64,000 nucleotides of DNA from Physcomitrium patens (taxonomy: Eukaryota > Streptophyta > Bryopsida > Funariales > Funariaceae), in the NCBI RefSeq assembly GCF_000002425.4, contig NC_037260.1, positions 10,713,414 through 10,777,413 of the forward strand, read 5' to 3'. The notes under the pieces are model-generated. The model saw only the letters and a list, made by a program, of their open reading frames with translations, had not been told where the DNA came from and did not search any database. Below, one piece after another: positions 20,401-58,746 of this stretch; positions within the stretch are counted from its first letter, which is position 1; each line of letters opens with the position of its first letter. Position numbers and translations under genes: made by a program.

Positions 20401-20695
20401 TTCATCTGATTGCTTTTTATTCTAAAAAATTTTTAGTAATTAAAATTAACTATAAGATCTATGACAAATATCTTCTTGTAATTATAGATTCATTTTAAGA
20501 ATGGTGTCATTATCTAGAAGGTGTTTTTAATCCAATTATTATATAAAAATATTACAAGAACTTCAAGTACTTCCTATTGGCATGTATTTTAAATCGTCTC
20601 TAAGCTTATTGGAGTATGTATTTATCAATATTTGATTTCAAGATCACCTATAACTTAAAAAATAACAAGTTTTATCAATTATCTTTTCTAGACAT

Positions 20696-24018: not shown

Positions 24019-24865
24019 CCAAAGTCTATAAAGATCTATTTCATAATCCATGTATTTCTTTTTGAACCACATAAGACAATAAATATCTCAAGAAGAAAAC
24101 AAATGCCACTTCTTCCTATAGAAGTACATAATAATCAAGAATTCAAGGTAGAAGAAGTCTTAGATTCAAGGCAGTGCCAAAATAGGTTAAAATAACTTAT
24201 TCATTGGCACAAATATAATATTAGAGAATGCACAAGGAAGCCAAGAAAGAGTCTTATAAATGCAAAAAAGAAGATTGAGGTTTTTCATCAATGACATCAA
24301 TCAAAATGAAGATAAAGAATACTAAAACTTTGCTACAAAAGAAATAAGATGTAAGAGAAATAGCATTCTACCTTCTACTCTTGTTTGATACTTTTGTACA
24401 TTTTTAATGCTAAGAAAATGAAGAACCAACAACCAACACATTCAACTTAAGAGCTATCACTTATTAACTTATAGAATAAAATATTATGATTGTCACAACC
24501 TTCAAGATGATGTAATCAAGATAAAAAATCTTCAAGAATGACACATCTTTCTTCAAATAGATGGCAAGTTATATGTATTTGGTATCACAACTTTAAAAGA
24601 GACTCTCGATATTTGATGATTTTATTAGAAGTTGGAATGACTCTTGACAATGTTTCAAATGTTTTATTTGAAGGAAGTTATGAAAGCCTTAATAACAATC
24701 AAATAATAGGGTGGTCTTTTTATTCTAGCTAGTAATACTGTCAATGGCTGAGAAGACCTATCAACCACCTTCAAACAAAACAAAGTTTATAGGATGTGAC
24801 AAATACAATTCATTGTATCTTCGATTTTTTCAACATATGATGACCGTTTCTAAAAGGAGAAGTAA

Positions 24866-26736
24866 TGTCACAAATATAAATATTTACTTTAATATTTATC
24901 TATATGATTAAATAGAAGTACATAGAAATAGATTTATTTTATAATATTTTCTAGAAAAGCTTCTTAATAGCTTTATAGATGCTGCTTTGATTTTACGTGT
25001 ATTTATAGTTGATTGATAGGTTAGAAAATTGATCAATAAGTTATCATGATGTATTATAATACAATTATATGATAAAAATATAATCAAAAATAAATTTCTA
25101 ATTAATATTTAATTATCTTAGTTCAATAATAATATAAGATATTTAAATATGGCTTTTATAAAAGTCTTTTAGATTATTTTTTTATCTTAATAGCCACTAG
25201 ATTAAGGATTGGTTAGTAATTTTACCTTTTAGGATGTAAAAATTCTTTAACTATCTTAAAAAGGTTATAAGTTAATAAAATCAGATTAAAAGAGATAAAT
25301 AATTAGCATGGTTGATACTAAGATTAAGTTGAGGATAATATTGGGCTAAAAAAATCCCTAAGATAGGTTAGATTGATACTTGAGGGTCGACCATTTGAAG
25401 AAGTGGATTGAAATCAAACTTCCAACTACTAAAATAATTGCTTGTGACAAAATAAAGAGGCATTTGAAGATAAATAATTAGAATTTGTGAGCTAGCTTCA
25501 AGCTAATTTCAAAGGTATAAGACTTGTTTTTAGAAGATTTGGAATGATTTTGCAATTATTGTTCAAAGTTGGGATTTGTATCGATGATTTGGGATTTATA
25601 CAATATAATTGAGACTAGCACTCTTAGTTAGTTCGTACAATTGGTATCACATCTATAGTTCAAAATTTGATAGTGTTTGGTTGATTAGATGTGCTAAATA
25701 TGCATAAAATTTTATATTAATCTAATAATGCAATATGGAGATACATAGATTTTGGTACAAGAGGATATTAGACGTTGGCAATTTAGAATTGGATAGGATT
25801 TTTATGATATCTAAAGCTCTATTAATCAAATGAAGGGGAAATTTGGCATGATAGTAGAAGATTTTAAGATTAAGCTACACACCAATTTTGAGTTAAAATT
25901 ATCAATTTAAAAAGGAGAAATTGATATTAAAACATCTATATCAACTTTAAAGTTGGTGGTTAAGTGATATTACTACAATTTTTGGGCTTTTTTTATAATT
26001 ATAAGTTGGATTGGTTTAAAAAAATTTAAGTATATTAAAGACTTACAGTGGCATTTTTGTGAAATTTTTTGCACTAAATGGATAGTCAGATTAGAAGTTA
26101 TAACTTGCTAAAATTCACCGATCAAAATTAGGATTTGCAAAGAGAAATTGAAATTATCTAATTATAAAAGTAATAAGGTAATTCGAATTTGTATATAATT
26201 GAGGTTACTAAAAAGAATATTTTTGATTATTTATATTGATTTTAAGCACTTTTGAATTGAAATCTAAATTACTTTGTATTTAGATAGTTGAAACCTATTA
26301 AGCTTCTTGGATATTTACAAAATATAACTTTATCTTCTACTATCAAGTACCTTGTGCATTCTCAAGCAAAGATTCATATAATATGACAACATATTGGTAG
26401 CTTACAAAATAAGCTAATTATAAGGCATACATATAAAAAACTTACTTTACAAGTTAAGATATGTATCTTACAAAGTCAACACATTTTAAAGGTCCTATAG
26501 GACATCACCACATAGCTCCTAATTAAGAGTATATATGAAGGCAAAAATGAAGCCTTCTTTACTCTTATTAATGCCTTTTTAATCTTTATTCTTGTTTTAA
26601 GACCTTTTAGTCTTCTTGTCTTTAATAATAGTCATTTTAATTTAATATTATATCATTTTTGAATGACTTTGTAATTCTTTTGAGTGATATAAGAGTGAAT
26701 TAAGGGTTTCTATCTTCGAGCTTTATGTCCTTAATA
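24866..26736 (+). repeat. Gypsy-1 3' LTR, split by T1-E
   Basis: LTR sequence occupies 24866-25041 and 26389-26736. Together these are 524 bp against 529 bp in the 5' LTR. The break falls after 'gatcaataagt' and resumes at 'acatattggtagc', where the 5' LTR is continuous. Confidence 0.82.
25042..26388 (+). mobile_element. Repeat T1, copy E, inside gypsy-1 3' LTR
   Basis: Begins TATCATGATGTATTATAATA and ends TTCATATAATATGACA, matching the T1 ends (TGTCGTGATGTAATACGG ... ATAATACGACA in copy C). The middle is diverged from B, C and D and has no telomere-like tract. No coding potential was seen. Confidence 0.68.
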
Positions 26737-28560: not shown

Positions 28561-29132
28561 ATGGAAGTATGAGTGAAAATAAAGAGCCAAAGAAGATAAA
28601 TCAAAGTGCATCTATAATTGCTAGAACCAACAATAAAGACAATCAAGATATTGAAAATGATGATGATGATGAGTGTCAACTATTAATTGTGAAGAGACAA
28701 GCTTCATGAAAGAAAAAGATTGTAAGAGACTTTGGACTATAAGAAGGTAAATCTTCATCAAGTAAAAAGAGATATTCTTTGAGAAATAGAAAAAACTTAG
28801 TGAATGATAGAAGAACCACATCTATCTTCAAGTAAGTAAAAATATGCCAATTTTGCACTTTTTGCTGATTTATTAAATTTGTGTGATGTAATAAAGTCTA
28901 TGGATGCTATGAAGTGGGAGAATGCCATTGAAGAAGAGTATAAATCACTCATAGACAATGGAATATAAAAAATGACTCAACTTCTACCAAATCAATCTTT
29001 AATTAGTTTTAAGTGGGTGTTTAGAACCAAAAAGGATACAAAGAGTAATATAGTAAGATAGAAGGCTAGATTAATTGCCAAAAACTACTCACAAGTTGTT
29101 GATATTATTTTCAATGAGACATTTGCTCTAGA

Positions 29133-30967
29133 TGTTATGATGTAACATAGTTAATGAGTGAAAGAAAGAAGAAAACATTATATTGTAGAAGATCTTATTT
29201 TAAAATATTATAGAAAATTATCTTTAAAAATAGATAATAGTTAAAAATATAGTAAAATAAAAATATATTATTTTTATTTTTTTATGAAATAGGCTTTTAT
29301 TTACTTTGTAGGACCATAAATAAGGCAAAATAAAATAGATTGGAAAATAAAATGATATAAGCATGTATAGAAACAAGTGAAGAGTAGATTTTGGCAAAAT
29401 TTACTTCAAGAAGTTAAAAATGGATACTTGGAGAGGATCGATTGTCAATCTGGATCAAAATCAGATCTTGAGGGACAAAACCATGTACCTATGGTGACTT
29501 TAGGATTCTTTAGAAGATTATAGAGTAGAATTTAAGAACAAACTTGTAAAAATATTTTTGGGCATTGGTTTTATATCAATTAAGTAAATGTTTAGTTTTG
29601 AAAGAATTTTTAAAGTTAGCAATGTTCTTAGTTGATAAAGATTTAAGAAATAAAACTATCTTTATACATTTGAAGGTTTCATGAGTTTAGTGGTATGTGT
29701 ACTAATAAATTTTGGATAGAATATTGGTATATTAGTTAAAAATGTGTGTAAAAATTTTGAGGTCAATAAAACAATTAGATCAAAGTGTATAAAAGTTTTT
29801 ATGGATTAACGTCTCAAAAATTGGAATTTGAAGGTCAATGAATATTTTTAAGATCTTTAGCGATTTGTTGATTGGATTGAAGTGAAACATTTTTATGTAG
29901 AGACTAGACTTAACTTTTAATAGTTTAAGTAAATATTGGAAGAAATTCAATATTTCAAAAAGAAAAAATTAGCTACTAGAAGTTCAACATTCAAATTGGA
30001 GTAGGAGGCCGGCAAACACATGAGCAATTTTTAGGATTTTTCTCTCATTTGATAAGTGCAATTATTTTCAAAAAAAAAATGTACTTATTTTTAACAAAGA
30101 TGTTAGAAGGTGTGTAAATTTTTAATCAAAATCAATGTTTTAATTAATAGATATTGAGGTTTTAATCTTCTTCATGATTGGTTTGAGTTGATTAGGTTTT
30201 GATTAGGATTTGATTTAGGTTTTAGGATTATTCTAAGATTTTATTAAGGTTTCAGGATTTATTTTGGACTTAGGATTTATCTAAGGTTTGATTTAGGATT
30301 TAGATTTTGTTTAGGATTTAATTTAGAATTTAGGATTTTTTTAGGATTTGATTTAGGATTTAGGATTTGTTTAAAACTTAGGATTTGTCTAAGGTTTGGT
30401 TTAAGGTTTAGAATTTTTTTTGGAATTTGGTTTAAGATTTAAAATTTGTCTAAGATTTGGTTTACAATCTAGGATTTGTTTAAGGCTTAGGATTTATCTA
30501 AGGTTTGATTTAGGATTTAGGATTTAAGATTTATCTAAGATTTGATATAAGATTTAGATTTTAGTTAGGATTTGACATAGGATTTAATTAAGATCCATTA
30601 TAGTTTTAATTAGGATTAAAGTAGGAATTGATTAAAATTTATTTAAGATTTATTTAATATTTTTCTAATATTTCTTGTGGATTTCTTTTGGATTTCTTTA
30701 AGATTTCTTTAAGGTCTATTTATTATTTTTTTATGATTTCTTTATAATTTTTGTAGAAGTTTTTAAAGATTTCTTCATGTTTCTTTTGTAATTTTTTTAA
30801 GATTTCTTTTGAATTTGATTAAAGCTTGATTAGCATTATTAAGGTTTAATTGGAATTTATTTAAAATTCTATTAGAGTTGTTAGGATCTTATTTTTGTAA
30901 TTTTCCTTCTATCTTCTATAGCCAAGTGTCTAGTGCATTCTCAAGCAAGATTTTACGTAATACAATA
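29133..30967 (+). mobile_element. Repeat T1, copy B, inside copia RT
   Basis: Starts TGTTATGATGTAACATAG and ends TTACGTAATACAATA; length 1835 bp. Text such as 'gatcaaaatcagat.ttgagggacaaaac' matches the better preserved copy C on the other strand. It carries the telomere-like tract at 30180-30560. Flanks CTAGA and CTGTG are too decayed to prove a target duplication. No coding potential. Confidence 0.72.
30180..30560 (+). repeat. Telomere-like GATTTAGG-rich tract within T1-B
   Basis: About 380 bases composed of GGATTT/GATTTAGG/TTTAGGATT words in irregular order. It resembles a diverged plant telomere repeat (TTTAGGG), but exact heptamers are rare. The same tract appears on the opposite strand in T1-C and in shorter form in T1-D (about 53980-54180). 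Confidence 0.75.
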
Positions 30968-32273
30968 CTGTGGCCAAATTCAATACCATTAGAAATATTA
31001 TGGCAATTGGAGTAGCAATGGACTTGGAAATGCATCAAATGGATTTGAAGATGGCTTTCTTAAATAGAGGGTTAGAAAAAAACATCTATATGGATCAACT
31101 TCAAGGATTTGTTGAAGAAGGCAAATAACATCTTGTTTGTAAGTTAAAGAAATATTTCTATGGGCTCAAACAATTATCAAGGACAAGGTACCAATGTATT
31201 GACACATTCTTTATGAATGAAGGTTTTGAAAGAAGTAAGGTTGATCATTCCATGTATATAATGAAATCAACTGAATTCATATTAATTGTCATTTTATATG
31301 TTGATGATTAAATTATTTTAATCAATATTTTAAAGATAATAGATTGGTTGAAGGCAAAGTTTGAAAAGAAGTATGAGATGAGTGATTTGAAAGAGCTTCA
31401 CTAATTTTTAAGAATGGAGTTTGTAAGAGATTGTACTAAGAAGACTATTATAATGAATCAAAGCAAGTACATTGAAGAGTTGTTAAAAAAATTCAATATG
31501 GAAGAATGTAAGTCTATAGGTACATCTTTGGAAGCCAATTTGAAGTTAATGAAGCTTAAGGATGAAGAATTTGCTTAAGTTAAAGATCAAATGTAAGGTG
31601 TTCTATATAAGATAGTAGTATATACACTTTTGTATATAATAGTTGGCACAAGGGTGGATCTTGTATATATGGTGAGTATTGTGAGCTAACACATATCAAA
31701 GGCTGGATCAATCTATTAAAAAACCATCAAAAGAATTATGAATTACTTAAAAGATACTATATATTTTAAATTTTATTTTGGAGGTGATAACATTATTTTT
31801 ATATTTTATGTGATCGGGATTGGATTGGAAATACAAATGATAGAAGGTCAACAATGAGATATATATTCTTTGTTAAAATGGGAGTAATTTCATTAAATTA
31901 CAAGAGACAACCAATAATTATAAGGTCAACAATGGAGGAAGAGTATATAGCTATAAGCCATGGTCTAATAGAAGCAATATGGTTAAGACAAATTTTCAAA
32001 GATATTAAAGTAGTACAAATAGAAGCAACTTCAATAAAGTGTGGTAATCAAGGATATCTTGCTTTTTCAAAGAATCCAAAACATCTTTTAAGGACCAAGC
32101 ACATTGACATTCAACGTCAAAATGAAGATTGAAATATGAGTGATTGATATGAAGTATTGTGCAATGTAAGACATACTTATTGATTTGTTGACAAAAGCAT
32201 TGGTAAAGGATAGATATCATATCTTAATAAAAGTATTAGCATTAAAATCCTTTGACCAATAACAAAGTGAAAG

Positions 32274-37048: not shown

Positions 37049-37576
37049 TGTTAAGAATGTATATAATTATCTAGATAAGAAGTGTTAGGTAGAAGATAAA
37101 TATAAGTAGATTTGATAATATCTTATGGAAAAGCTTCTTAGAAGCTTTATAAATGTGGATTTGATTTTATACATATTTATAGGTAATTAATAGGTTGAAT
37201 ATTTGGCCAATAAGTTGGCCACGTTTTAGAAATATAGGAAACTTTTGGTACAAATTGACTATGTAGCACATATGTAAGAAACTTGTCTTGTAAATTAGAC
37301 ATATGTCTTGCAAGTTGGACATGTATCAAAGGCCCTATAGAATGTTGTCATATAGCTCTCTATTAGATAGTATATGTGGAAGCAAGAGTGCATCCTTTTT
37401 CAGTCTTATCAATGCATTCCTTGTTTGTAGTCTTATTTCAAGAGTCTCTAGTCTTCTTGTCTTTAGCAATAGCCATACTAATTTCAATATTGTACTATCT
37501 TTGAATAAATATCTACTCTTTTTGAATGATGCAAGAGTATTGAAGTTTTTATTGTTTTTAATTCATGCCCTTGACA
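37049..37576 (+). repeat. Solo LTR of the gypsy-1 family
   Basis: 528 bp, starting TGTTAAGAATG and ending CCCTTGACA. Target duplication ATAAG (37044-37048) and ACAAG (37577-37581). Shares the gypsy-1 LTR text (aagcttcttagaagcttt, atcaaaggccctatag, agtcttcttgtctttagcaa). No internal region follows, so it arose by LTR-LTR recombination. Confidence 0.8.
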
Positions 37577-37830
37577 ACAAGATTTTAAAATAAGACACTT
37601 AAAAATTTACAAAATATTATTTAAATCATATGATAGCTATTTAATTTTTTGATAATTTTTTATTTTAAAATTAAAAATTTATATATTTTATAGAAATTAA
37701 ACCATTCAAATAATCTTTATTCATTCATACATATATATACATGTGAATAAAATAAAAACAAAGAATTAAAATATTAAAAAAATATTAAAATATTAAATAT
37801 ATATTTATGTATAATATTTTTGTATTTGAA

Positions 37831-40800
37831 TGGCACAAACATTCATATTGACACTAGTAACTACTAAAATAAAATATTTTTGATATAAATAAATAATAAT
37901 AAATAAATTTAATAATATCTTATAGAAAAATTTATTAGAACCTTCATAGATATGGATTTGACTTTAAAAGTATTTGTTGATGATTGATAGGTTGAAAATT
38001 TAGCTAACAAGTTGGTCATGTATCACACATATTGACAACTTGTTTTATAAGTTGGTGACATGCTATACATATTAGCCACTTGTGATACAAGTTGGTCATG
38101 TAGCACATATATTAGAAATTTGTCTTGCAAGTTAGACTTGTCATTTACAAATTGGATACGTATCAAATTATCTATAGAATGTTGTCAAATAGTTCATTAG
38201 TTAGATAGTATATGTATAAATAAGAATGAAGTTTTCTTTATTCTTCTTAATACCTTTCTTGTTATTAGTTTTATTTCAAGAGTTTCTAGTCTTCTTGTCT
38301 TTAGCAATAGTCATTTTGGTTTTGATATTAGTAGTATTTTTGAGTGAATATTTATTATTTTCAAATAATATAAGAATATATTGATTCTTTAAATATTTTT
38401 TGATTTATATTCTTCTAAATTTGACAAGAATCTTAATTTTTTATACTTATTTTTTCAAAAGTGAATAAATTATCTCATTGCTTATTCTTCAAAATATACT
38501 ATTTAATTAAAAAATTATAAAGTAAAATTTTATAGGTTATTTGATATGTGTCTAATTTATGCAACATGTGACTAATTTGTAATATAAGTTTCTAATATGT
38601 GCACCATATGACCAATTTGTATAACAAAAAGCCTATTTATAAAGCAATTAATCAACATATGCAACACTAGGTCCACTTAATTAAGTTTTCAATCTATTAA
38701 TCACCTACAAATACTTATAAAATCAAATCTAAGTCTATGAATCTTCTAAGAAGCTTGTTTATAAAATATTATCAAATTTATCTACTTCTATCTGTCTTTG
38801 CTTATCTAAGTGAATATTAGTATTAATATATCTATTTATAATATAAGAATTAGAATCAACTACCATCTATATTGTCAAATTTAAAAACCTTGCTTGCAAC
38901 ATGGATTAAAATGATAAAGTTTTTATCAATAAATTTTGACATGGATTAAAAGATAATATTGAAGTTTTATTATCAAAAATGCAAAAAAAAAATCTTTGAA
39001 ATAATTTATTACTTAAGCCATTGCATTTTAATTAATTCTTTAAAAGGTATCAAAAATAAAGATTGATAGAAGGAAAACAAATCAAGTTGTGACAATAATT
39101 CTTAAGTTTTTAGAAACTTATTTATTAATGTTCAAATCTATATAAATTAATGTAATATATTTTAAATATATTACTAACTAAGAAAATATTTAATTTCATT
39201 AAAAAAATTATATTTATATTATCAAGAATTTAAACATATTTTTAAACATTGTCCAATGTAAAAATGCAACTACAAAATAAAGAGCATAGTTGTCAAAAAA
39301 GATAATGTATTAGAAAACAAGTTTGTCTTGCTATAACTAGAACTATGTAGCTAGAATATTATACAACACCTAGTAAAGATTCTATTCTTTCTTCAAAATA
39401 ATTACCTTATTTCAAAATAGATGCTTGTCAAAGACTTAAATATCACAAAGTCTTTATCTAAACTTGCAAATATGTCAATTGCTTTTTAACATCTAATGAA
39501 TGCTATTTTTTAAGAGTTTTTAGATGATTTTTTTATTTAATATCTAAATAAAATTTTAATTTATTCTTCAAATACAATAGAATATGAATTTTAAGTTTGT
39601 TGTGTATTACAAAAATTTAGAGATATAAAACTATATAATAAGATGTAAAAGTTTATATTTTATAGAATTTAAGTTAATTTTTTAAAATATATTATTTCAA
39701 ATGATCTACTTATGATAGATCCTAAGTAAGTTTATGCTAAGATAATTGTAGCTTATAATTGAAGAAATTTTTTAGCAATTAAGATCAATTATAAGATCTA
39801 CAACAAAGAATTTTTTGTAATAGTAGATTCATTTAAAAATGGTGATATGATTTAAGAAATTCTTCTAATTAAGTGGCTATTTATATAAATCATTAGAATT
39901 TCAAATATTTAATAAATTATTACTAAATTTATCACTAAAATATAATTTATTACTAAAATATATTAAAATTTTATTACTAAATTTATTACTAAAATATAAT
40001 TTATTAATAAAATATATTAAAATTTTATTACTAAAATACTTATTATTAAATTTATTAAATTAAGAATTTATAAAAATTTATATTTAATATTATTTATTAA
40101 TAAAAAAAATAATAAGATTTATCAAACATCCTTTTTAAATATTTTTATCTTGTATCAAAAGAAAGAAATTTAATTTTCAATCAAAAAAAAAAATTCTTTT
40201 AAAGCCAAAGTAATTTCATCTTCTAGCAATATAATCAATATTAACTATTGATTCAAAAAACAATTATCAAATATAATTAGGAATATCCTCAAATCTTTTT
40301 TTTCATGATATTAAGAATAATTCTTTTAAATCTTATTATACTTCTATGTTTGAATTGAAAGATAATCTTTTCTATTTTGAAAGTAATTTTATGTTTCAAA
40401 AGATAAAGCAAAATTACAAGCTTTGCAAGCTTGTGACAATTTTTCAACTACAAGAAATTTTAGATATAAGATGACTTTGAAGTTAATATCAAGAAATTTT
40501 TAGTGGCTTCAAATATTCAAAGTAATTAAATACTTTGTATAATCATGTAATACTTATTTAACATTTAAAATTCTTCATCATTAATTTTATAGATTTTTCT
40601 AACCACTACTTATATTAGAAGAAACATGATCATTTGTTTCTATAGACTTTATCACAAATCTTCTAATTTCAAGCTCTTAGGCTTCTATATTTGTAATTAT
40701 AGATTATTTCATTAAGATGGTAAATATTGTAGTATATAAAAAAACTATTACAAGTGAAGAAACAACTAAATTCTTTTTTGATAAAATTTATTATTATCAT

Positions 40801-42862
40801 TGATTATTAAAAAAATATTACATTAAATAGAGAGACTTTATTTGTTTTTAGATTTTGGAGAATATTTTTTAAGATATTAAGAATAGACATAAACTATCTT
40901 TAATCTTCTATCTTTAAACTAATGGACAAATATATCATATAAATTAAGTATTGAAGCAATATTTAAAATATACCATCAATTATCATCAAAAAAAATAGGA
41001 TAATTATTTTGTTATTGGCAAAGTTTTTTATAATAATACAATACATTCTTCTACTCAAAAATCATTTTTTTATGTTAATTATGATTATCATCCATCATTT
41101 AATATTTTTAACTTTTCAAAAGTTGATAATCTTGTAGCAAAAGATTTGACAAGTTATTTATTAAAGCTATATACGACAATGAAGGCACAATTAAAAGAAC
41201 CTCAAAAACAACAAAAAATCAATGTAGTTGTTTATTGTAATAAGCAACCTCAATTTCATATTGGCGACAAGGTATGGTTATTCTACCATAATATAAAGAT
41301 TATTTGCTATTATAATAAGTTGGATTACTATAGATTTAGATTTTTTTATTTGTAAATAAATCAATTTAATTGCATATCAATTACTTCTATTAGAATCTAA
41401 CAAGATCCATCTTTTTTTTTATGTATTTCTTTTTAAATTATATAAGACAATGTATATAAAGAAGAAGACAAATGCCACATCTTTCTAAAGAAGTAAACAA
41501 TCATCAAAAATTTGAGATAGAAGAAATTTTAAATTTTTAAGTAATATCAAAATAGGTTGGAATATCTTATATTTTGGTGCAAATATGATATTGATAAACG
41601 CATATAGAATCCATCTAAAAATCTTACAAGTACAACAAAAAAGATTGATATTTTTCATCAATAACAACTATAAAAACCAATATGAAGAGTTAAAAAATTC
41701 TTTACTATAAAGCAAAGTAACCTCAATAAAAATCATATTCTATCTTCTATATTTATTTGTGGTTTTTTTTATATTTGTAGCATTTTGAGGATAGAGGATT
41801 ACTAACTAAAAAATTCAACTCAAAAACTATTGTTTGTTAAGTTACAAGCAAAGCCTTTAAAATTGTCACAACTTTCAAGAGAATGTAATAGAAATGAAGA
41901 TCTTAACAAATAAGATATTTTTTTTGAATAGATAAAGAGATATAATAATTTTGATATTACTACCTTAGAAGAGACTTTTAATATTTGTGAATATTATTAA
42001 AGGTAGAAGTCACTCTTTATGGTATTTTTAATATTTTATTTAGAGAAGTTATGAAGACCTAAACAATGATTAAATAATAAGGTGGACTTCTTACATTGAT
42101 ATGTAGTACTATTGATAGTTGAGAAGACCTATCAAATATCTTTAATGAGAATAAAGATTAGAATATGTTAAAAATATAATTTGTTGCATTTCAAACTTTA
42201 TCAATATGTCACTACTTCTCTTTGTAGAACTTATACTTAAAAAAAGAAGTAATATCATGGACATATATATTAACACTAGTAACTACTAAGATAAAAAATT
42301 AATTAATTAATTAAAGTAAGTAAAAATATATAAATTTGATGATATCTTATAAAGAAGCTTTTTAAAATCTTTGTAGATACAAATTTGATTTTAAAAGAGT
42401 TTGTAGATGATTAATAGGTTGAAAACTTAGCCAACAAGTTAGTCATGTGTCATACATATTCACAACTTATTTTATAAGTTGGTCACATGATGTGCATATT
42501 GGCCATTTGTAGTACAAGTTGGCCATGTGGTACAAATTAGCCATGTAGTATACATATTAAAAACTTGTCTTACAAGTTAGACATGTCTCCCACAAATTAG
42601 ACACATATCAAATGATTTATAAAACATCGCATGTAGTTCACTAACCAAATAGTGCACATGGAGGCAAAGGTGAGGTCTTCTTCACTCTCTTCAATATATT
42701 TTTTGTTCTTGGCATTGTTTCAAGAGTTTTTAGTCTTCTTGTCTTTGGCAATAGCTATATTAGTTTCAATACTAGTATTATTTTTAAGTAAATATTTATT
42801 CTTTTTAAGCAACACAAGAATATATTGATTCTTTGGTTGATTTATGATTTATATCTTTGAAA
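37831..42862 (+). mobile_element. Ty3/gypsy element 'gypsy-2', internally deleted, same family as gypsy-1
   Basis: LTRs at 37831-38426 (596 bp) and 42253-42862 (about 610 bp). Both begin near 'acactagtaactacta' and end in TTGACA or its decayed form. Internal text follows gypsy-1 in order but is only about 3.8 kb. The target duplication is not clear (TTGAA and TTGTG). Confidence 0.78.
38430..42200 (+). pseudogene. Gypsy-2 gag-pol remnant lacking the RT core
   Basis: gag-like text (38890-39400) runs into protease text near 39430. It then jumps within a few bases to RT text equivalent to about 19840 of gypsy-1, so the protease end and the front of RT are deleted. A second jump near 39745 removes the connection domain. 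Integrase text spans about 40140-41400 and ends near 41340. A chromodomain-like piece is at about 41500-41600. Stops are everywhere. Confidence 0.72.
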
Positions 42863-43299
42863 TTGTGTTGCTCCAAAATTTATATTAATAAGACCATATT
42901 ATTCCTTCTCTTTATCTTCTATTTACACCATGGCAACTTGGTCATGTAGAAGAACTTCTAAGAGCAACATGTTTTCTATATGTTTCTTTTATAATCTTAT
43001 TTTGAATATTTTAAATGAAAAAAAATGAAATTTTTAAATAATATAATCTTTTATAATATTATCAAATATTCTATATAATTATTTTTTTATTTTACTTGAG
43101 GTTTTGTGATCCATCTTACATAACAGTTTTATTTTTCTCATCAGCAATAAATGTTAAAATAAATTGTAAAAAACTCATTGTTTTTGGCCCAGTATGTTTG
43201 GCAATCAAACCATGTTTGGCAATCAAGTTCTTTTGGAAAAAATATGTCCAATCTTTATATCTTTTTAATATATCTATATGATGCATGCACTATTTGTTT
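42863..43299. other. AT-rich spacer right of gypsy-2
   Basis: About 440 bp of AT-rich DNA. I see no recognisable coding or repeat content, apart from a short local repeat 'gtttggcaatcaa' near 43196-43225. Confidence 0.5.
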
Positions 43300-48240: not shown

Positions 48241-48250
48241 AAAAAATATA

Positions 48251-48363
48251 GGGCAAATATCACACATGTCCCTGAACTTTCTCAAAATATGAAGAATACC
48301 CCTCAAGTTTTGATAATATCACACATGCGGCTCAACTTTGTAACAATTGCAAATTTGCCCTTT
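48251..48363 (+). repeat. MULE left terminal inverted repeat
   Basis: 113 bp. Inside it the word ATATCACACATG occurs twice, each time followed by CTGAACTTT- or CTCAACTTT-like text, so the repeat is itself partly duplicated. Confidence 0.85.
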
Positions 48364-48559
48364 CACTAGCTTTCAGTGAGAATGCAAATTATTACGAAGT
48401 TTGCAATTATTACAAAGTTGCAATTATTACACTAAATTTGTGTAAACTTTCACTAAGAATGCAAGTGACGAACATTCTGTAAAGGCTTCAATTTCAGGTG
48501 TTCATTGATTAAGTTGTTCACGTGCTACATTCGTGGTCTGCTCATAAGATGGTCATGCA

Positions 48560-48890
48560 TATCATCTTTGCTGAGGGAAGACGAGAAAAAGGAAGACCCT
48601 AAAGCTGAAGAAAAGAAGAAAAAGGTCAAGGCAGAGGAAAAGAAGGAAGACGCGACGGAGAAGAAGGTGGAAGTGGAGGAGAAGAGAGAGGAGAAGAAGG
48701 AAGAATCCCTCGCCTTACTCCACGTATGGAACTGCCATGGATTTCCCCTCTTTAGTACAGACTGAGCCAATCTCACACGCCTCTCTATCCCGATTACCAC
48801 AAGGCTTATGGTCTTCAAATTCCCTTGTACAATGCCAACTACATGAAGCACGACCAGATGGCCTTCTGAGACTGCCTCGTAGTTTGAAGC
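48560..48890 (+). pseudogene. Lys/Glu-rich fragment, possibly HIPP-like
   Basis: From 48565 the frame reads DEKKEDPKAEEKKKKVKAEE and continues Lys/Glu-rich to about 48714. In another frame at about 48783-48862 a Tyr-rich piece reads YPDYHKAYGLQIPLYNANYM. A Lys/Glu-rich middle followed by a Tyr/Pro-rich tail is the layout of heavy-metal-associated isoprenylated plant proteins (HIPPs), but no metal-binding HMA domain is seen. It is frameshifted and lacks both ends, so it is a captured or broken fragment. The family call is tentative. Confidence 0.3.
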
Positions 48891-49002
48891 ACTATTTTGC
48901 GTGTCTGGACACATTAATGCGAGGTGATTCGGAGGCAACTGTGGTAGAGTACATTAAATTGGATAACCAGAACTTGCTCACTAGATTAAGCTTGAAGTCG
49001 TC

Positions 49003-49260
49003 GTAGGTAGAGCGATGGCTGGGCTTGTACCACTCCAGCTTAGCACGCTTCCAGCTGATGTTTTGACAAATGTGAATGCTCCACCCAAGGATGAATCGAT
49101 CCTTGTCATCACAGCTGCACAGTTACCAGAAGCTGATGCATTTTTGTTCGGAATTCCAACTCGATATGGAACAATGTCAGCATCAATGAAGGTATTCTTC
49201 GATTCCAAGGGAGGACTGTGGAGAGGGCAGTCTCTAGCAGGGAAGCCAACAGGAATTTTT
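49003..49260 (+). pseudogene. FQR1/WrbA-type NAD(P)H:quinone oxidoreductase exon fragment
   Basis: Plant FQR1-type flavoproteins reduce quinones with FMN. This fragment reads LPADVLTNVNAPPKDES, then ITAAQLPEADAFLFGIPTRY, then GTMSASMKVFFDSKGGLWRG and SLAGKPTGIF. It covers roughly residues 45-115 of a ~200-residue family. The FMN-binding N-terminus (usually VYYSxYGH) and the GGGQE loop are missing. After GIF the frame diverges from the family's YSTGSQGGG. It is a captured exon or relic, not a working gene. Confidence 0.8.
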
Positions 49261-49309
49261 GTGCAATATATTGTTCAGTGCAAGGCAATGGCATTTTTCT
49301 GAAGGAATA

Positions 49310-50230
49310 GTCAACAATTCACGATCACATCGACCAAACCAGGTTACCCAAACAAAAATCTAAATAGATAAGAATGTGCTCATCTTCCTGATAAAAAGTG
49401 ATCTCCACAACTATGGAACTGTGTCACAGTCGAAGAGCACAATCCCATTACAACAATCAAACCAAAGTTGAAAGTGTAATGTTCCTATAAAGCATCTCAT
49501 TGAAGGAGATAGTTTTTTCTGTGAGTAACAGTGCCGAGCCTGTATAGTATCGTAAACGTAACGATGCGTACAAATCTCAATATGATTTACTAGTAAAAAT
49601 AACAAATCACAAACATTATCAATCAGATTTTGAGAACGTCTCCAGTACAAATGATAAGAAAAAATATTCTTATGATGTTATGTATACAAAAATATTTTTC
49701 TCTTCAGAATACAAGACTCGTGATAGTGGTAGAGTAAAACTCCATATGTATAGTCCTGTTCAAAGTTAATACATACAGAAAGACTAATCTGAGAGATAGA
49801 GTGTTCACTACACTTGCTTACACTTCAATACTTATTGTCACACCCTAATTCAAAGTGTAAAATAGATTGTATCACTGGTCTCATTGAGCAAAAGGTGAAA
49901 TGAATAATATATTAACGTCTAGTACAGATGGGTACTACCAGTATTCATATGTAACTAAAGTATTGCAAAAGCAGTCGTTTTTCTACCTCCAATACAATAG
50001 CACTACATAGAATACAAAGCTTAGAAGGGTAAGCAAGCAAGATGTCACATATTCCTAAATTAACTATTAAGCAATACATTCTGAGTTCAATATCAAATCT
50101 TCACAAGAAAATATACTTATAGTAACATATATGCCCTTTTATATCAAATAGTACACCTTTAGTAGATCTTACACACAACTCTTAAGCTAAATCACCAAAG
50201 ACATGTTTGAAGTATCAGCTATGTTGAATG
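49310..50230. other. Unassigned DNA between FQR fragment and viral-like block
   Basis: Composition falls gradually from plant-exon-like to AT-rich. I see no reading frame with a motif on either strand. The junction between captured plant sequence and viral-like sequence must lie here. Confidence 0.4.
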
Positions 50231-51082
50231 TCATATGTTAGTATCAATAGATAAAGCATGTGTTCTCAGCTTGGTCATCAAAGAAAGTATTTCACCTCTT
50301 GACTTAAAAGATGATAATTTCAATCCCATTTTCTTTAGATATTTCTTTACTTCAAATTTTTGTTCAGGAAGTCCTCCAAACAAAGACAATATATATTCTC
50401 TAGTAAATACAATACGTATAATAAACACTTCATCATCTTTGACATTAATACCATACATTACTTAAGGAAGTATATCATTTTAAAAAGTGCTATAATTCTA
50501 CTGACATGCTGCAATAAGAGCACTCACAAGTTGTATTTTTCCATTCTTATATCTTTTATCATGCTTGTGTTTACTTTCTTGCAAAATCTACACTGATTGT
50601 TTATCTTTTTTTCCTTCTCTATCACTGAAAGTAGTAAATACTTTATGTATAATTGTCATCTTAAGTCTTGATGGTACTATTTTTAAATGCAAAGAAACAT
50701 CAAACTTACATTCTTGAAGCAAGGTGTCTACTAAAGCTTAAATATATGGTTAAAACTTGAAATCTGGACTTTCAGATATGCTATTTCTTAGTATATGCTT
50801 CAACTTCATTAGAAACCTTCTTTGACTATCACTTAGATTCTTGTACCTGCTCAGTACAAATATTAGTACCTGGTCATACTCAAATCCTTCCAACTTTAAA
50901 TGTTCAAAATTAGGATCTATTTGAACATCAAAATATTTAAGAAATATATTTAATACGTTGTTTGTCTTACAAATGTTTATCTTTACTGCTTCATCTTCAT
51001 ATATTCTAAAGTAAGATGCATATTGTTTAAAGTTCCCTATGTCATAAGCTTGAGTTCTAAAACGCTTTGATTTTGGTGCCAT
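50231..51082 (-). pseudogene. Viral-like pseudogene W, about 284 codons, unknown function
   Basis: One frame runs from ATG at 51082 to TGA at 50231 with six internal stops, all TAA or TAG, and no frameshift that I can see. It begins MAPKSKRFRTQAYDIGNF. Later parts are charged and regular, for example GGLPEQKFEVKKYLKKMG. No domain was recognised. It is intronless, and its start lies 56 bp after the end of pseudogene Z, on the same strand. The long retained frame shows that it was once coding; the viral origin is inferred from its neighbours, above all the DNA polymerase. Confidence 0.55.
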
Positions 51083-51138
51083 TGCAAATAATATTATTTT
51101 TCATAGTAAACATTTATATGGGACACATACTGCACTAA

Positions 51139-51414
51139 CTAGCAATATCTTTGTCTACTATTCCATATCTCATATTTCTTACATCTAGGTGTAAGACATT
51201 TAATGAATCTTGAAAAATAATCTCCAACAACAAATCCTTTAGAACAATCAGAGTTACAACCTTCTCCTTCAGCTTCACCTTCAGCTTCACCTTCATATAA
51301 ACTATCTTTATTCTTTATTATTAGATTGATTCTAAATAAAGACCTCTTGATTCTGTGTCCATCTCAAAGCTTTTCAAGTATCTTATCATTATGAAAATTC
51401 TGTTTATTGTGTCC

Positions 51415-51445
<31 letters not shown>

Positions 51446-51904
51446 CTATGTTTGTTTCATAATAAGGATGATCTGATGGATCAAAGAAGTCTTCACATTT
51501 TCTTCTGCTTTTTCTCATGTTTTGTTCTAATATTTTATTAGGCATCTTAGCTGCAATATCCGATGGTACACATGGAAGACCTTGTTTTTTTAGGTTCTCT
51601 TCATGTGCCTTCATCTTAAGTCCAATAAGATCCATCTTTTGCTTGTTTATTAATGATAATTTTCTATTTATAGTCAATTTGTATCTTTTATTCTTTTCAT
51701 GGGTAGGTGTGGCTCTACAGTCTTTTTTTTCCCACAATAATGACCAATAGCAACTATAGCCTTCTATTCATGAATACAAAGATGCTTAATTTGATACTCC
51801 TTAAGTGAATTATATTCTTCTTGTGATGTCATAGCTTCTATGGTATTCCATAATTCTTTAATATAGCTACTTGGTAGTATGGAATATATTCTCTCATTGA
51901 CCAT
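51139..51904 (-). pseudogene. Viral-like pseudogene Z, unknown function
   Basis: Starts MVNERIYSILPSSYIKELWN at 51904, 30 bp after the end of pseudogene XY. It has a stop near 51775 and a frame change at an A8 run near 51722-51729. It then continues with a Cys-containing, Lys-rich segment (GLPCVPSDIAAKMPNKILEQ). A (TA)n run at about 51416-51441 interrupts it. The end, with EGEAEGEAEGEG and a Cys-rich tail (CLTPRCKKYEIW), reaches a stop at 51139. The paired Cys might be a metal site, but no family is recognised. Confidence 0.5.
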
Positions 51905-52951
51905 TCTACACTATATATCCTACTTCTAATACAATCAAGGAATCATTCTTGATTCTTCAATTTTTCTTATCTGTCTTTTAATAGGAAGTTGATCAAAGAG
52001 TGCCTGTGTTTTCTTTTCTTCTTCCTCCTTCATCTTTACAACTACTCTCAGCTCTATAACATCCTCTTTTATTTCTCTAGCCAGATTTTCTTTAACACTT
52101 TTAAACATGTCTGCATGAATTGATAGTACTACTGCACAATCATCAAGTCTAGGTATCCTCACTCCTCTCTCTTTCAGTCTGTTAAGGTTAAGTTGTGCTT
52201 CACAAATCTTTCTTATACATTCATCTCTATTGTGTAAAGTAGCAAATACTTCAAGAACTACATTTACACCACAATAGTTTCTGTGAATACTGCAAAATAA
52301 TAAGTTCAGCTTAGTAAGATGTTCACATTGCTTTCTGTATAGTATATAGTTGTAAATTATTGCTTTATAATGTCTTAGTTGTTGTACAATACCTTCTTTG
52401 CCAACTACCATTGATTTCTTGTCTTGGCCACAAAAGGAAGTATTGTCTTTTGTTTTGTTTGGACACTTTAATCCTTTGTTTGGTCTTATAAAAAGTGTTG
52501 CTTCACATTTAAAATCAAGCGGAGGTACTACTTAAACTGTAATTCTTTGAATATTCTTGCTAATCCCACTAAAATATTCAACCAATTCATCAAAAATTTG
52601 TTGCTTGATGTGAAGTAGGATTTCTATAAGACATCTTAAAGCTCTTACATTAGTGCATCTTTAATTGCTTTAAAGTCCAATATGGCTCCATTGCCCTATA
52701 TAATCTATGATACTTATGACATTTATAACATCTACACTAATTATAATAAGTTGTAAGTATTACATATATATTTAGCAATATATTACTTGTAAAAATATTA
52801 TTTGAATTATTCACAATAGTTTATAGAAAAATATATATTATTTTTTGTCAATCATATATATATAAGCTTCAACTTCTCTAAGGTACTAAAGTATTTATGT
52901 ATCCTCAGTTGAAGTATCTTATTTCTCTATAAGGTCTATTTCATGCTATTG

Positions 52952-54429
52952 TGTAGTAGTACAAGTATATGGTGAAAAATGAAAACATGGGTGTTGTTAT
53001 AGAAGAGCCTAGTAGGAAGATGTGGTAGAAAAATAAGTGTAAATGATAAGAAGGTAATAAAAAGTTTAGTCTTAATATTGCCCTTTAGAGAAGGGGCTTC
53101 TATTTGATTTATAGAGACATAAATGCCTGTAATCAAAGTAAATAAGATAAGCAATTGATATGAACATATTTAGAAGAAAATTATCAATAAATTCAAGCAA
53201 AAATTACCTCAAATTATCAAATATTGATATCCATAGATGACTAGTTGTCAACCTGGGTCAAAATCAAACCCCAAGGCACAAAATTGTATACCAATGGCAA
53301 CTCCAAGGTTCTATGGTAGATTAGAGAGTGAGATTTAAGAGAAAACTAGGAAAGAGATTTTTGAGAATTGGTTTTATATCAATCAAGTTAATATTTAGAT
53401 TTTGAAAGATTTTCAAAGTTAGTGATATTCTCAGTTGGATTAGATTTTAAAAAATAAAATTATGTTCACAAAATTGAAGATTTCTTGAGTTCTATGGTGT
53501 GTATATGGGTGAATTTTAGGCAATATGTTGGTGTTTTAGTTGTTATTATGTGTGAAGATTTTAAAGTCAATCAAATAGTTAGATTGAAGTCTGTAAAAGT
53601 TTTTATGGATTGACGTCTCAAAAATTAGAATTTGAGGATCAGTGAGTATTTTTAAGATTTTTAGCAATTTATTATTTGAATTGAAGTGAATTTTTTTTGT
53701 ATGGAAACTAGATTTTATTTTTCACACTTTAAGTATATATAAGAGGCAATTCAACAATTCATAAAGGAGATATTGGCACTAGAATTTCAACATTTAGATT
53801 AGAGTAGGAGATCGGCCAACACTCAAGCAAAATTTAGGATTGATCTATAATTTTGTAAGTTTGATTCTGTTCAAATTTTGTGTGATTGTTGCCAACTTAA
53901 TTTTTAAAAGATGAGTAAAATCTTAAGCAAGATCAATAGTATAATTGATAGATATTGAGGTTCTAAATTGTCCTAGGATTAAGTTAATTTGATTAGGATT
54001 TGGTTTAAGATTTAAGAATTGGTTAGAATTTAGGATTTTTTTAGGATTTAGTTAAGATTTGAATTAAGATTTAAGTAAGGACTATTAGGATTTCAATTAG
54101 GATTTAGTTAAGATTTGAATTAAGATTTAAGTGAGGACTATTAGGATTTCAATTAGAATTAAAATAAGATTTGATTAAAATTTATTTAAGGTATATTTTA
54201 GAATTTATTTTAATACATCTTTTGAATTTCTTTACGATTTCTTCATGCTTCTTTTGTAATTACTTTGAGGTTTTTTTGGATTGATTAAAGCTTGATTAGA
54301 ATTTTTAACATTTAATTGGAGTTATTTAGGATTCAATTAAAATTAAAATCTTGTTGTTGCAATATTCCTTCTATCTTCTACAGTAAGGTGCTCAGTGCAT
54401 TTTCAAGCAAGGCTTCATGTAATACATCA
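52952..54429 (+). mobile_element. Repeat T1, copy D, inside viral-like pseudogene XY
   Basis: Shares with copy A 'atagaagagcctagtaggaag' and 'gataagaaggtaataaaaa', and with B 'gtcaacctgggtcaaaatca'-type text. It has a short TTAGGATTT tract and the common T1 end 'tcaagcaaggcttcatgtaatac'. The left limit is approximate (52952-52992). No target duplication was resolved. Confidence 0.68.
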
Positions 54430-54869
54430 ACGCACCATATTCATATCATGTTTGAGCTCATCAAGTAATGAACATAAGTATATAATATATCCTATTATAG
54501 ACATCAATTTCTTAGTATTTGCTTTATATATAGTATCATAAAGATTATTAGCTATAATTATAGCGACTTTATTGCTACCAATCTATATACTTTCATCAAT
54601 ATTATTGGATATTATATACTTGTCTATGTTAATAATCTTCTTACTTTTTCTATTTGAGTGGATAAGAAGCTATCACTTTGCTCTATAGAGTTATTGATGA
54701 GGCTCATAATATATTTTGAATCATCATGAGATACTTTAAGACCATTTGCAATATAGTTCTCAATAATTATATCAATATTTTCTATAGCTTTTATTGTGGC
54801 AACATCATGCCTCTCAAATGTAACCATCTTCCTTTTCAAAGATGATATTTTGTTTTCTATAAGAGACAT

Positions 54870-56118
54870 TGTTGAGGTAGAGAGAATTTGCCTTCAGAAA
54901 GTCCTAGACTTCTAGTTGTTACTTATTGCTCAATGAAGTCTTAAGATAGAAAATCACTAAGTTTACATGTAAAAATTTGTCTCTATAGGGATAATTATAT
55001 CAATACATAAGTCTTAAGTACCAAAAAATATCCAAAATGTAATAGAAATATTCTAAATCCTTATATATTCTTAAGCTAAATTTTTTCCAAAATTTAATAG
55101 ATTATATCTCATGTTCGGACCATCCAAACATTTTGAAATATTACATGAAGTACTAATGTAATTTAAACAACTATCAAAACAAATTTCAACCTCAAATTCA
55201 TTACAAATCTTGAGATATTGCTAAAACCCTAATAATAGCTTTAAATCCTTACTTACATATACTTCTTTGTAATTTTCTTCATATATCACAAATTAAGTAC
55301 TCAAATACTATAAAATTTTGATATATAGTTTTTTTAATCTAATAACACACATCTTAAAAAATTTTGAGCCAAAAATTCGTCTCAAAACTTAAGATATGGC
55401 TCCAACCATTACTATTAACAAAATGATTCTTTTATTGCCTTCAAATTGCATGTATTTTTTTCAACGCTCTATGACTTCTTTATAATTTTTTTAAATATAG
55501 TAATTCTTTTATAAAAGATGTAGGTCTTAAAATCATCCTTATGGTTATATATTTCAATCTTCAAAAGCTATCTTATAACTTCTTACATCTTCAAAAGAAC
55601 AATAACATATCTTAAAAAGACATCTTAACTTCAAATAGCTATACTTTTATCATCTTAATTCTAAATCCTCTAAAAATTATATACAAATTATAGTCCAAAT
55701 CCTAAATCTTACAATCTTTAGTTTGGATTTTCAAATATTCCTTTTGAAGTTGCCAAAATCATTGCTATAGTTGTAAACACCCTCTTAAGAGCTTATTGGA
55801 CATGGTTTTTGACTAATAGTAATAAAAACCTTGATTCCTTGCCTTCATCCATTCATACCTTGTTTTCATCCCTCCAAATAAGCTTCTTAGAGGTTTGGAT
55901 CTTTATCTTTGAGCCCTAATATTTTCTTTAAATTTTATACTAAATATCTAAATTCTATATAATTTAAATATTTTAATCAAAATATGTAAATTTCAAAATA
56001 ATTTTTTTTACATCAACTCTCTTTAAATTAATCTACTTACCACTCTAATATACATCAATATTTATAACTGTATTATATATTTTAGTTAATTTTTACATAC
56101 CATAAATATTTATAGTAA
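54870..56118 (+). mobile_element. Repeat T2, copy 2, inside viral-like pseudogene XY
   Basis: 1249 bp, starting TGTTGAGGTAGAGAGAATTTG, collinear with T2-1 over its length. Flanks are GACAT (54865-54869) and AACAT (56119-56123). It interrupts a reading frame whose two sides resume in the same orientation. Confidence 0.72.
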
Positions 56119-56623
56119 AACATGTCACCTTGATTTCTATCAAAGACAGCTTTACAAAGATTGCTGATATGTTCTAAAAAGATGGCTATTGTTTAGGTGC
56201 CTTAGATCTAATATTGAAAATATCATGCTTGAATATAGAAGCCTGCATCTCTTTTTAATTATTAGATCATAAGAGAGTACCTATAAGTCTATTAATAAAT
56301 ACAAATGATGAATTTTATGAATTTCTATTAATACTTGGTTTAAATAAGCTTATATCAAACCTTATCTTTGATAATTCCACATCATCTTTATCTAAATTTA
56401 TATCACATTTATTCAATTGGGTAATGTTATGTACATAACCTTATGACAAAGAATGGTTGCCCTCATTTACATCATTTATCCATCTTGTTGCACTCTTCTT
56501 CAAAGCATCTACTTCAATTTGAAATGAATTAAAGAACTTAAAAGCCATGATATTAAACTGCTATACAAAAAAATCAAATAATAGTAGTATATGTATTATA
56601 TAAAGTAGTCATATAAGAACATA

Positions 56624-56731
56624 GGAATATGTGACTATATCATCATAGCTCTTATTGATATCCTTAAGACATATCTTTTGTATAATTTTTATTTTATTCT
56701 TTTCAAATTCCACATCATCCATCTTTACTAT
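56624..56731 (-). pseudogene. Short viral-like frame, unknown
   Basis: About 35 codons beginning MDDVEFEKNKIKII, ending at a stop at 56624. It lies between pseudogene XY and the plus-strand frame at 56801. It has no recognised motif; it may be a remnant or chance. Confidence 0.2.
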
Positions 56732-56800
56732 ACCTAATCTCAAATTACAATGGATTGTGAATGATGTACCCATTCTCAAGCAATAGATATATGTATTTTA

Positions 56801-57037
56801 ATGGGTACAAATTATAATAAGAAAATTAATAAAGTAGGACCTAAGACAGCTCTTGTTGAGATACAAAGTCATGAAAAGCTAGAAAATACTAAGTACTTCA
56901 ATGAAGAAGAATTCAACATTAATAAACTAAGACAAATATACAATTGTACATACTCAAAACAAAAAATAAGGTGGTTCTTGATTAAAGCTGATGAAGAGCT
57001 TAATATTTTAGAAGACTCAATTAAGATTTATGATCTA

Positions 57038-57040
<3 letters not shown>
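56801..57040 (+). CDS. Intact small open frame in viral-like block (79 aa), unknown
   Basis: Starts MGTNYNKKINKVGPKTALVE and ends at TAA without an internal stop, while every neighbouring frame is broken. It runs opposite to the polymerase and to XY. The sequence is Lys/Asn/Glu-rich with no recognised domain. Another Met codon (MYF at about 56792) lies a few codons upstream in the same frame. An AAAT microsatellite follows at 57041-57071. It may be a real viral-like gene or chance survival in AT-rich DNA. Confidence 0.3.
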
Positions 57041-57068
<28 letters not shown>

Positions 57069-57099
57069 AAAAACTTTTTTTCTAAAGAGCTAATTTTGG

Positions 57100-58330
57100 C
57101 CATAGCTAAGCCTTTAATAGTACCAATAAATTCCGTTATTAAAGAATATTATCTTAATAATTATAAGAGTTGATCAATAAAATTAGAAATATTAGTTTCA
57201 ATATAATATAAATAGTCTATTTCAAGATTGTGAAGTAATATTAAATGAGGTAGATATATTTTGTATCTCTATAATTTAAATCTTTTTTTGGTCTTAACGA
57301 ATACAAAGTCAAGTTTGTCACCAAATCTAGCTTCTATCTTTAGATCCTTTAGTCTATCACTATATACTAATAAAATTATATTAGAACTAAAGTATCATAT
57401 AATTATATGAACTAATTATATGAACTAAAGTATCATTTTTCTAATTTAGACATTTTAAGCTTTCTAAAAGAATATGGTCTCTTATTAGTAATAATAGTTC
57501 ACTCTTGATATATTCCATTATATATTCATATGATGTTGAATTCATAAACACATCTACAAACAATGAATACATATTGTTTAGGAATATGCAACTATCTCTT
57601 TTGAATACAATCACTCCCTTTTATATCATCTTATGTTCACTAGCTATAAGTCCTATATGTCTCTTCTTTGTTATCAAAAAAAATGTTTCAAATACACTTT
57701 CAAATTAAAGCTTTACCAAAGCACAAAATTCTTTTGATACCTCATTGGATATATGTACAACTAATGTTTTACACAATTAATAATCCGAAGTAGTATGAGA
57801 AGTAAATATACAAGAATCAATATTACCATATACCAAATGTACAGGATATCTAAAAGATATGATGCTTGATGCATGCATAAGCATAGATGTGTCTATTGTT
57901 GTTGTGGACTCTACACCTTCTATAAATTATAAGTATGAAGAATCATGAGTTCTATATTATCTATATATAGAATTAGAAGATATATTTAGAAGAAATTATC
58001 TTCTTTCAAGAACTATCTTTTCTATTCTTGTAGCAATATTAGACTTTATCTGAACTTCTTTTCTCTTTAATATTAATGTCTTTAGTATGGATGGTATCAA
58101 TCCTAGAGGCTCTTTTATAAACATGTAAGACTTCTTGTCAAATACTTGTACAGTGAAACAAGGGTGATTAGAGTTTCTCTTGATAAACATTGAATAACAT
58201 ATGTTATGACTTATTATAACAAAAGGGTACAAACTTGAAAAGTCGAGCAAAGAATACCATTTGTAAAGTCTAAAAGTAGGATTTGATATTATAGCTTCCT
58301 TGTATTCAAATTCTTCAAGCAGTGATTCTA
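57100..58330 (-). pseudogene. Family B DNA polymerase pseudogene, large-DNA-virus type
   Basis: Family B polymerases copy DNA in viruses and cells. This relic starts near 58330 and holds the palm and thumb. Motif A is DFSSLYPFVIISHN (first Asp codon 58242-58244). Next comes GLIPSILKTLILKRKEVQ. Motif B is NSIY (57963-57974). Motif C is VYGNIDS (57813-57833), where the first Asp of the usual YGDTDS is Asn. TKKRHIGL follows near 57670. The thumb piece LEIDYLYYIE lies near 57210. Motifs A, B and C remain in one frame, 90 and 138 codons apart, with few stops between. The exonuclease N-terminus is missing. The SLYP/NSIY/YGxxDS set and SHN after motif A fit NCLDV-type or cellular polymerases better than protein-primed ones. 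It is non-functional. Confidence 0.85.
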
Positions 58331-58339
58331 TTTTATTTC

Positions 58340-58620
58340 CATAATGTCAAATTTGTGGTTTAATTGAGAGCCTCAAATGCAATACTTTGTTCAAGAGAAT
58401 TGGCTATCAGAGCAAGTGAGTTGAAAGCATCGAGTGTTGCGAAGAGTGCAACAACAGATGGAGGAGTTGCAAGAGGAGTATTTCTTGCTGAAACTGAGCG
58501 AGGGTAGGAGATTTGCATGAGACCCAAACATTGCAAAAAAAAAACAAAGGCTTTGGGCCCCAATTAAAGCTATTAAAAAAATAAAAATAAAAACGAAAAA
58601 ATTGAACAGATAGGTTATCA
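58340..58620 (-). other. GC-richer fragment next to the right inverted repeat
   Basis: Two minus-strand frames are open here; one (about 58380-58500) reads ALFATLDAFNSLALIANSLE. Composition is plant-like rather than viral-like. It may be another captured exon of the MULE-like unit. No family was recognised. Confidence 0.35.
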
Positions 58621-58624
58621 GCCC

Positions 58625-58737
58625 AAAGGACAAATTTGCAATTATCACAAAGTTGAGGGGCATGTGTGATATTATCAAAACTTGAGGGATATTCTTCACA
58701 TTTTGAGAAAGTTCAAGAGTATGTGTGATATTTGTCC
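58625..58737 (-). repeat. MULE right terminal inverted repeat
   Basis: Reverse complement of the left repeat at roughly 100 of 113 positions. Followed by AACAATATA, the right half of the putative 9-bp target duplication. Confidence 0.85.
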
Positions 58738-58746
58738 AACAATATA

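Follow-up and report, generated by a model that had tools for sequence, protein, structure and literature searches.

Virus-like DNA inside a Mutator-like transposon that carries a plant gene fragment in the moss Physcomitrium patens

How does DNA of viral type come to lie between the inverted repeats of a plant DNA transposon, and does the transposon carry it around the genome? This question is raised by a 10.5-kb unit at positions 48251-58737 of a 64-kb stretch of the Physcomitrium patens genome (contig NC_037260.1, here C8; C8:10713414-10777413). We refer to the whole 64-kb stretch as the window. A preliminary description had proposed a Mutator-like element (MULE) whose repeats and flanking duplication enclose plant exon-like fragments together with viral DNA. 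We searched the genome (470,438,890 bases in 101 contigs) for relatives of this unit and compared its parts with protein, domain and virus databases. The unit is a real chimera, a MULE that contains both a fragment of a host gene and virus-like DNA, and a sibling element elsewhere in the genome has the same ends and the same gene fragment without the virus-like block.

Results

The two terminal inverted repeats (TIRs) of the unit lie at 48251-48363 (forward strand) and 58625-58737 (reverse strand) and begin with GGGCAAATATC (left) and GGACAAATATC (right). Compared arm against arm, they are 89% complementary, with 101 of the 113 positions identical; the 12 differences comprise 10 transitions and 2 transversions. 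The flanking target-site copies, AAAAATATA at 48242-48250 and AACAATATA at 58738-58746, agree at eight of nine positions, a level reached by 0.14% of random 9-mer pairs drawn from the flanks. Thus, both the 113-bp repeats and the near-perfect 9-bp duplication of the preliminary description were confirmed. Elsewhere in the window the arms gave short matches only, the best of which (24 bp at 48397-48420, E 0.002) adjoins the left arm. Long TIRs common to a family, a 9-bp target-site duplication and a captured host gene fragment, all of them found in the unit, are traits of Pack-MULEs. No MULE transposase was seen among 53 of the 56 pieces of at least 38 amino acids (aa) at 49.3-52.9 and 55.9-58.4 kb, a Pfam scan from which three AT-rich pieces were dropped and which leaves out most of the ends and two nested repeats, Y and Z, described below.

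The left arm has 84 candidate places in the genome. Forty of these were scored, all with E 1.3e-15 or better, and several matches form pairs 1.7 to 15.6 kb apart. Apart from the unit there are 38 scored hits, and the 29 stretches that we fetched, each of at most ~10 kb, take in 33 of them. Three of the six siblings tested are flanked by in-register 9-bp duplications (9/9 for C2, 8/9 for C24 and C26b). At C5:13304174-13319778, a 15.6-kb TIR pair of the same family, the complementarity runs on outside the TIRs, as judged by eye.

A sibling on C6 (L093, C6:5586000-5595900) is a MULE of ~4.57 kb in the orientation opposite to that of the unit. Read in the direction of the unit, it matches 48493-48937 (73% identity), continues with 2.4 kb of its own, matches 48950-49499 (91%), has a further ~300 bp of its own and then matches 58340-58742 (76%). 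Homology stops after 49499 and restarts at 58340-58346, and the C6 sibling holds ~300 bp where the unit holds 8.85 kb (49500-58346). The Pack-MULE that encloses the virus-like block is therefore also found without this block, and the proposal of virus-like DNA within a plant DNA transposon, whether captured there or landed there, is borne out, as is the Mutator-like nature of a unit with a host gene fragment. Because the C6 sibling shares both ends and this fragment, the two TIRs represent one element, and not the ends of separate small elements. That a rearrangement joined the ends of different elements, with viral DNA between them by chance, is extremely unlikely: the genome has many TIRs of the family (84 candidates), but the 8/9 flanking duplication stands in exact register and the C6 sibling has the same two ends in a single element.

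Two segments next to the left end belong to the MULE. The first, at 48493-48937 (forward), is an internal segment common to siblings. Besides its C6 match, a relative on C3 (L121) shares the subterminal region and 48493-48997 (68%), with no further FQR segment. The second, at 48950-49499 (forward), holds the FQR/WrbA-like gene fragment. Its open piece, 48985-49299, matches Pfam FMN_red (E 1.1e-6) and, best in PDB (E 8.1e-13), WrbA-type proteins, in agreement with the plant FQR fragment described before. At the right end, the preliminary description had seen another plant exon, possibly of a HIPP gene. For HIPP we obtained weak Pfam matches only, and 58347-58624 (reverse) is subterminal MULE sequence, since 58369-58733 recurs at the opposite end of the MULE on C6. 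Its presence at both ends of the sibling rules out a host exon here.

Within the block, a B-family DNA polymerase (PolB) fragment spans 57272-58346 on the reverse strand. Its motif-A region, 57999-58346, matches Pfam DNA_pol_B (PF00136) with E 2.8e-13, which verifies the polymerase that had been noticed in the middle of the unit. The pieces at 57272-57926 are tentative. Two of them, 57780-57926 and 57444-57620, may resemble later B-family motifs; nothing convincing was found for either in Pfam, nor in PDB for 57444-57620. The polymerase piece has one relative (P0003, 71% over 45%) in a large protein set that offers only proteins of a length similar to the query. The similarity to P0003 ends at 58337, within ~10 bp of the MULE junction, and in most other polymerase copies, too, the match begins no earlier than the fourth or fifth residue of the piece. 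The C-terminal part of a FEN1-like nuclease lies at 56765-57037 (forward; PDB FEN1 E 2.4e-5, Pfam 5_3_exonuc E 0.0044, below the cut-off). After these two, the next best match among the 53 interior pieces had E 0.0055.

Further virus-like DNA covers 51420-52906 (reverse). Its frames are at 51324-51767 and 51938-52531, and another piece reaches ~52660. In the large protein set, two proteins are related to the 198-aa frame at 51938-52531: P0001 (99% over 74%) and P0002 (52% over 93%, aligned to 51959-52630). No further relative of P0002 was found in that set, and its predicted structure (mean pLDDT 37) is uninformative. Repeats Y (52907-54433) and Z (54853-56117), both on the forward strand and both missed by the preliminary description, are nested in the block. 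We regard them as host repeats because further copies exist in the window (Y near 23177-24018, 29094-30968 and 34615-32767; Z at 20679-21944) and in TIR-family stretches (Y in L103 and L109; Z in L117, 78%). The stretch between them, 54434-54852 (reverse), with an open frame at 54627-54893, is perhaps virus-like, judging from its position. The innermost left segment, 49500-51414, begins at the left junction, is absent from the C6 sibling and has an open frame at 50753-51100 (reverse).

The virus-like DNA of the unit has many relatives in the genome. We found 26 matches to the polymerase fragment on 15 contigs, unit included, of which the other 25 are 58-79% identical. The open frames around them range from 86 to 827 codons, and stops interrupt the matched stretch in 14 of the 26. 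For the 198-aa frame we found 21 matches, again including the unit. A same-strand 198-aa frame occurs within 20 kb of 12 of the 26 polymerase matches. The distance is 4.0-4.3 kb in eight cases and 11-17 kb in three; in the unit it is 6.06 kb, or 3.27 kb after subtraction of Y and Z. Thus, the order of these two mapped viral frames is conserved in host chromosomes at eight of the 26 polymerase matches. Given this order and the insertions of Y and Z, the block, in its right part at least, represents a fragment of a dispersed family, collinear with the other copies but interrupted.

A copy on C10 (L122, a 2.4-kb stretch) aligns to 52171-51420 of the unit and no further (73.5% DNA identity over 52171-51430). 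An (AT)n tract lies in the unit at ~51415-51445, where this similarity stops, and could possibly be a shared end of the viral repeat. Since the observed-to-expected ratio (o/e) of CpG in L122 is 0.84 beyond the match versus 0.34 within it, the viral DNA on C10 may end at the ~51420 match limit. Polymerase matches also form two inverted pairs. One, at C13:10770870-10791328, is 20.1 kb apart and both members have a 198-aa frame 4.0-4.3 kb inward; the other, at C15:9045238-9064122, is 18.6 kb apart and one member has such a frame inward. At least eight copies keep order and spacing, some frames comprise several hundred codons (despite the stops in 14 of the 26 polymerase matches) and there are the two inverted pairs, all of which would suit the idea that the dispersed copies are one virus-derived repeat family amplified inside the plant genome, and not the product of many separate infections. 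We consider such amplification unlikely; if it did take place, the MULE copy would show such DNA entering a transposon able to carry DNA further.

We then asked what kind of DNA this is. When 1986 pieces from the whole window were compared with a phage-type PolB profile, the polymerase fragment was the sole convincing match (E 1.9e-7; next 0.12). Pfam revealed no convincing viral domain outside the unit in 59 of the 102 pieces of at least 55 aa at 10.5-47.9 kb; the convincing matches were retroelement domains, and two virus-named models stayed at chance level (E 0.04 and 0.06). From 1-10.5 kb two pieces only were compared with Pfam, and 58.7-64 kb was not covered. Within the scanned part, the earlier observation that viral-like sequence is confined to the space between the repeats holds. 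An exon of a host replicative polymerase is unlikely, as the PDB matches are distant (archaeal-type best, E 2.8e-9; delta, 1.6e-5; alpha; zeta), with no plant polymerase among those compared. For P0003, the best PDB match was yeast delta (2.9e-8). A phage origin was also set aside: four of eight IMG/VR scans gave no relative, and the other four gave, among the matches listed, polymerases 28-48% identical over ~41-98 residues. These relatives (L001, L002, L083 and others, among the matches listed) are phage-type by our reading, and the search patterns of one scan were shaped by L001 and L002. Polintons match another polymerase model than PF00136, which was the only polymerase model matched here; the protein-primed PolB type of Polinton/Maverick elements was not found. 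Our best assignment of the block would be to the giant viruses (Nucleocytoviricota).

The preliminary description had also suggested that, through the transposon, the viral DNA can move within the genome. Our results do not support this. Only one of the 26 polymerase matches, that of the unit itself, is near a scored TIR hit; a gap of 334 kb separates the next nearest from the closest of the 40 scored hits. Other copies of the 113-bp repeat exist (the 40 scored matches), but tblastn detected viral pieces in none of the 29 fetched stretches. With blastn, the whole unit had no other counterparts in these stretches than TIRs, subterminal sequence, Y, Z and the segments shared with C6 and C3. So far, the combination of FQR fragment and viral block is known from one copy, and one sibling lacks the viral cargo. 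A second carrier could have been missed, since large siblings are partly covered, five hits were unfetched and 44 candidates unscored. The same results make it very unlikely that this Pack-MULE lineage held the block from the start and that the C6 sibling lost it. In favour of such a loss, both flanking segments are present in a single sibling, C6, which has a private 300 bp; however, the viral family is located mainly away from scored TIR hits, and none of the 29 other TIR-family stretches contains viral pieces.

CpG o/e is 0-0.2 over 50200-58346. The viral copy on C10 (L122 1-760, C10:7733000) is much less CpG-depleted than the unit: from this copy to the unit, we counted 88 C>T/G>A versus 49 reverse changes, while CpG o/e drops from 0.34 to 0.06. 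Compared to C6, the subterminal region displays a C-to-T bias (43 versus 6), the FQR segment barely so (18 versus 14). Depletion and bias fit methylation and C-to-T decay, methylation being the presumed cause. Because the flanks of the unit are CpG-poor too, this contrast neither dates the gain nor orders the events. CWG o/e (window 50001-58346) is ~1 over most of 50.5-52.5 kb and mostly <0.5 over 52.5-58 kb, and methylation may have acted differently on these two parts of the block in the past.

Elsewhere in the window, 156-1842 holds legumain-like protease exons (by eye) and 3298-6270 protein kinase exons (Pfam for 4147-4701). Nested, strongly decayed retroelements (CpG o/e 0.09-0.18) occupy 15662-42864; we assigned 16960-26736 and 37063-42864 as Ty3/Gypsy-like and ~26.7-32.7 kb as Ty1/Copia-like.

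Discussion

How did the chimera arise? We favour, as the probable history, that repair introduced part of an endogenous giant-virus-like repeat, in broken form, into a Pack-MULE with an FQR fragment, and that decay followed. The starting point would have been a non-autonomous MULE (Pack-MULE) that already held the FQR fragment of the host. In one lineage, an interior stretch of ~300 bp would have given way to 8.85 kb that included the broken repeat piece from the same genome. The likeliest route may be the repair of a break or an excision gap in the MULE, with an existing viral insert copied as template or filler. Host methylation of the block and decay by C-to-T change would have followed. 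The block was most likely gained by the unit rather than lost in the C6 sibling.

Alternatively, incoming viral DNA could have integrated straight into the MULE as break filler, with the loss of ~300 bp and no copying from an older insert. PMC13308828 states that the moss can take up giant-virus-type DNA as filler in DNA repair, and the end of the polymerase similarity within ~10 bp of the MULE junction is in line with such an event. Yet 49500-51414, found in neither the C6 sibling nor the L122 stretch, would fit the copying of an insert plus its flank, and two host repeats are nested in the block. We therefore hold direct integration to be somewhat unlikely.

Several results weigh against gain by repair from an existing insert. 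A clean in-register duplication is missing in three of the six siblings tested (C6, C26 and C20). C6 also departs from the unit in the left subterminal region, and at 48937/48950 the two differ by 2.4 kb. Several rearrangements have thus happened, and the polarity is drawn from one sibling; the C3 relative leaves gain versus loss undecided. The segment 49500-51414 has no match in the L122 stretch or in the 29 TIR-family stretches, and neither a template locus for the viral block nor a second place with the junctions of the unit was found. The ends of Y and Z show no duplication longer than 7 bp. Finally, a 198-aa frame within 20 kb is lacking for 14 of the 26 polymerase matches, and the 3.27-kb spacing of the unit is 0.7-1.0 kb shorter than in the eight close copies.

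Giant-virus DNA in this moss is not new. According to PMC5294986, P. patens was the one among 110 land-plant genomes surveyed with core proteins of nucleocytoplasmic large DNA viruses; its DNA polymerase was placed near Pithoviridae, as was a second marker, which is D5 if the columns of the table correspond to its legend. PMC13308828 and PMC7466625 cite the original report of giant-virus inserts in moss (Maumus et al. 2014, as cited there). Since such DNA has already been reported in P. patens, the viral part of the unit probably represents a known type of insert. Its Pack-MULE setting may be new; we found no report of viral DNA inside a Pack-MULE in the literature searched. If the gain is confirmed, Pack-MULE capture reaches from host exons to endogenous giant-virus DNA, and ordinary plant transposition could shuffle viral fragments. 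In addition, a virus-like family on 15 contigs of one plant genome makes repeated infection versus within-genome spread testable.

The unit resembles known Pack-MULEs in its long TIRs, 9-bp duplication, host gene fragment, the lack of a transposase domain in the pieces scanned, and its siblings elsewhere. Unlike them, it carries a cargo that is mostly virus-like DNA plus two nested repeats, and it measures 10.5 kb; PMC6431247 states that no Pack-MULE of Jiang 2004 exceeded a full-length element of 7 kb. With the endogenous giant-virus inserts of P. patens it shares a B-family polymerase in a land plant. Those are known as chromosomal inserts, whereas the fragment described here lies inside a DNA transposon, and its identity with those inserts is presumed. 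A further parallel is Teratorn of fish, in which herpesvirus DNA is joined to a piggyBac-like DNA transposon. Teratorn is ~180 kb long and has intact herpesvirus genes and a transposase, while the moss unit consists of decayed fragments, with no transposase domain seen, held between the ends of a plant MULE.

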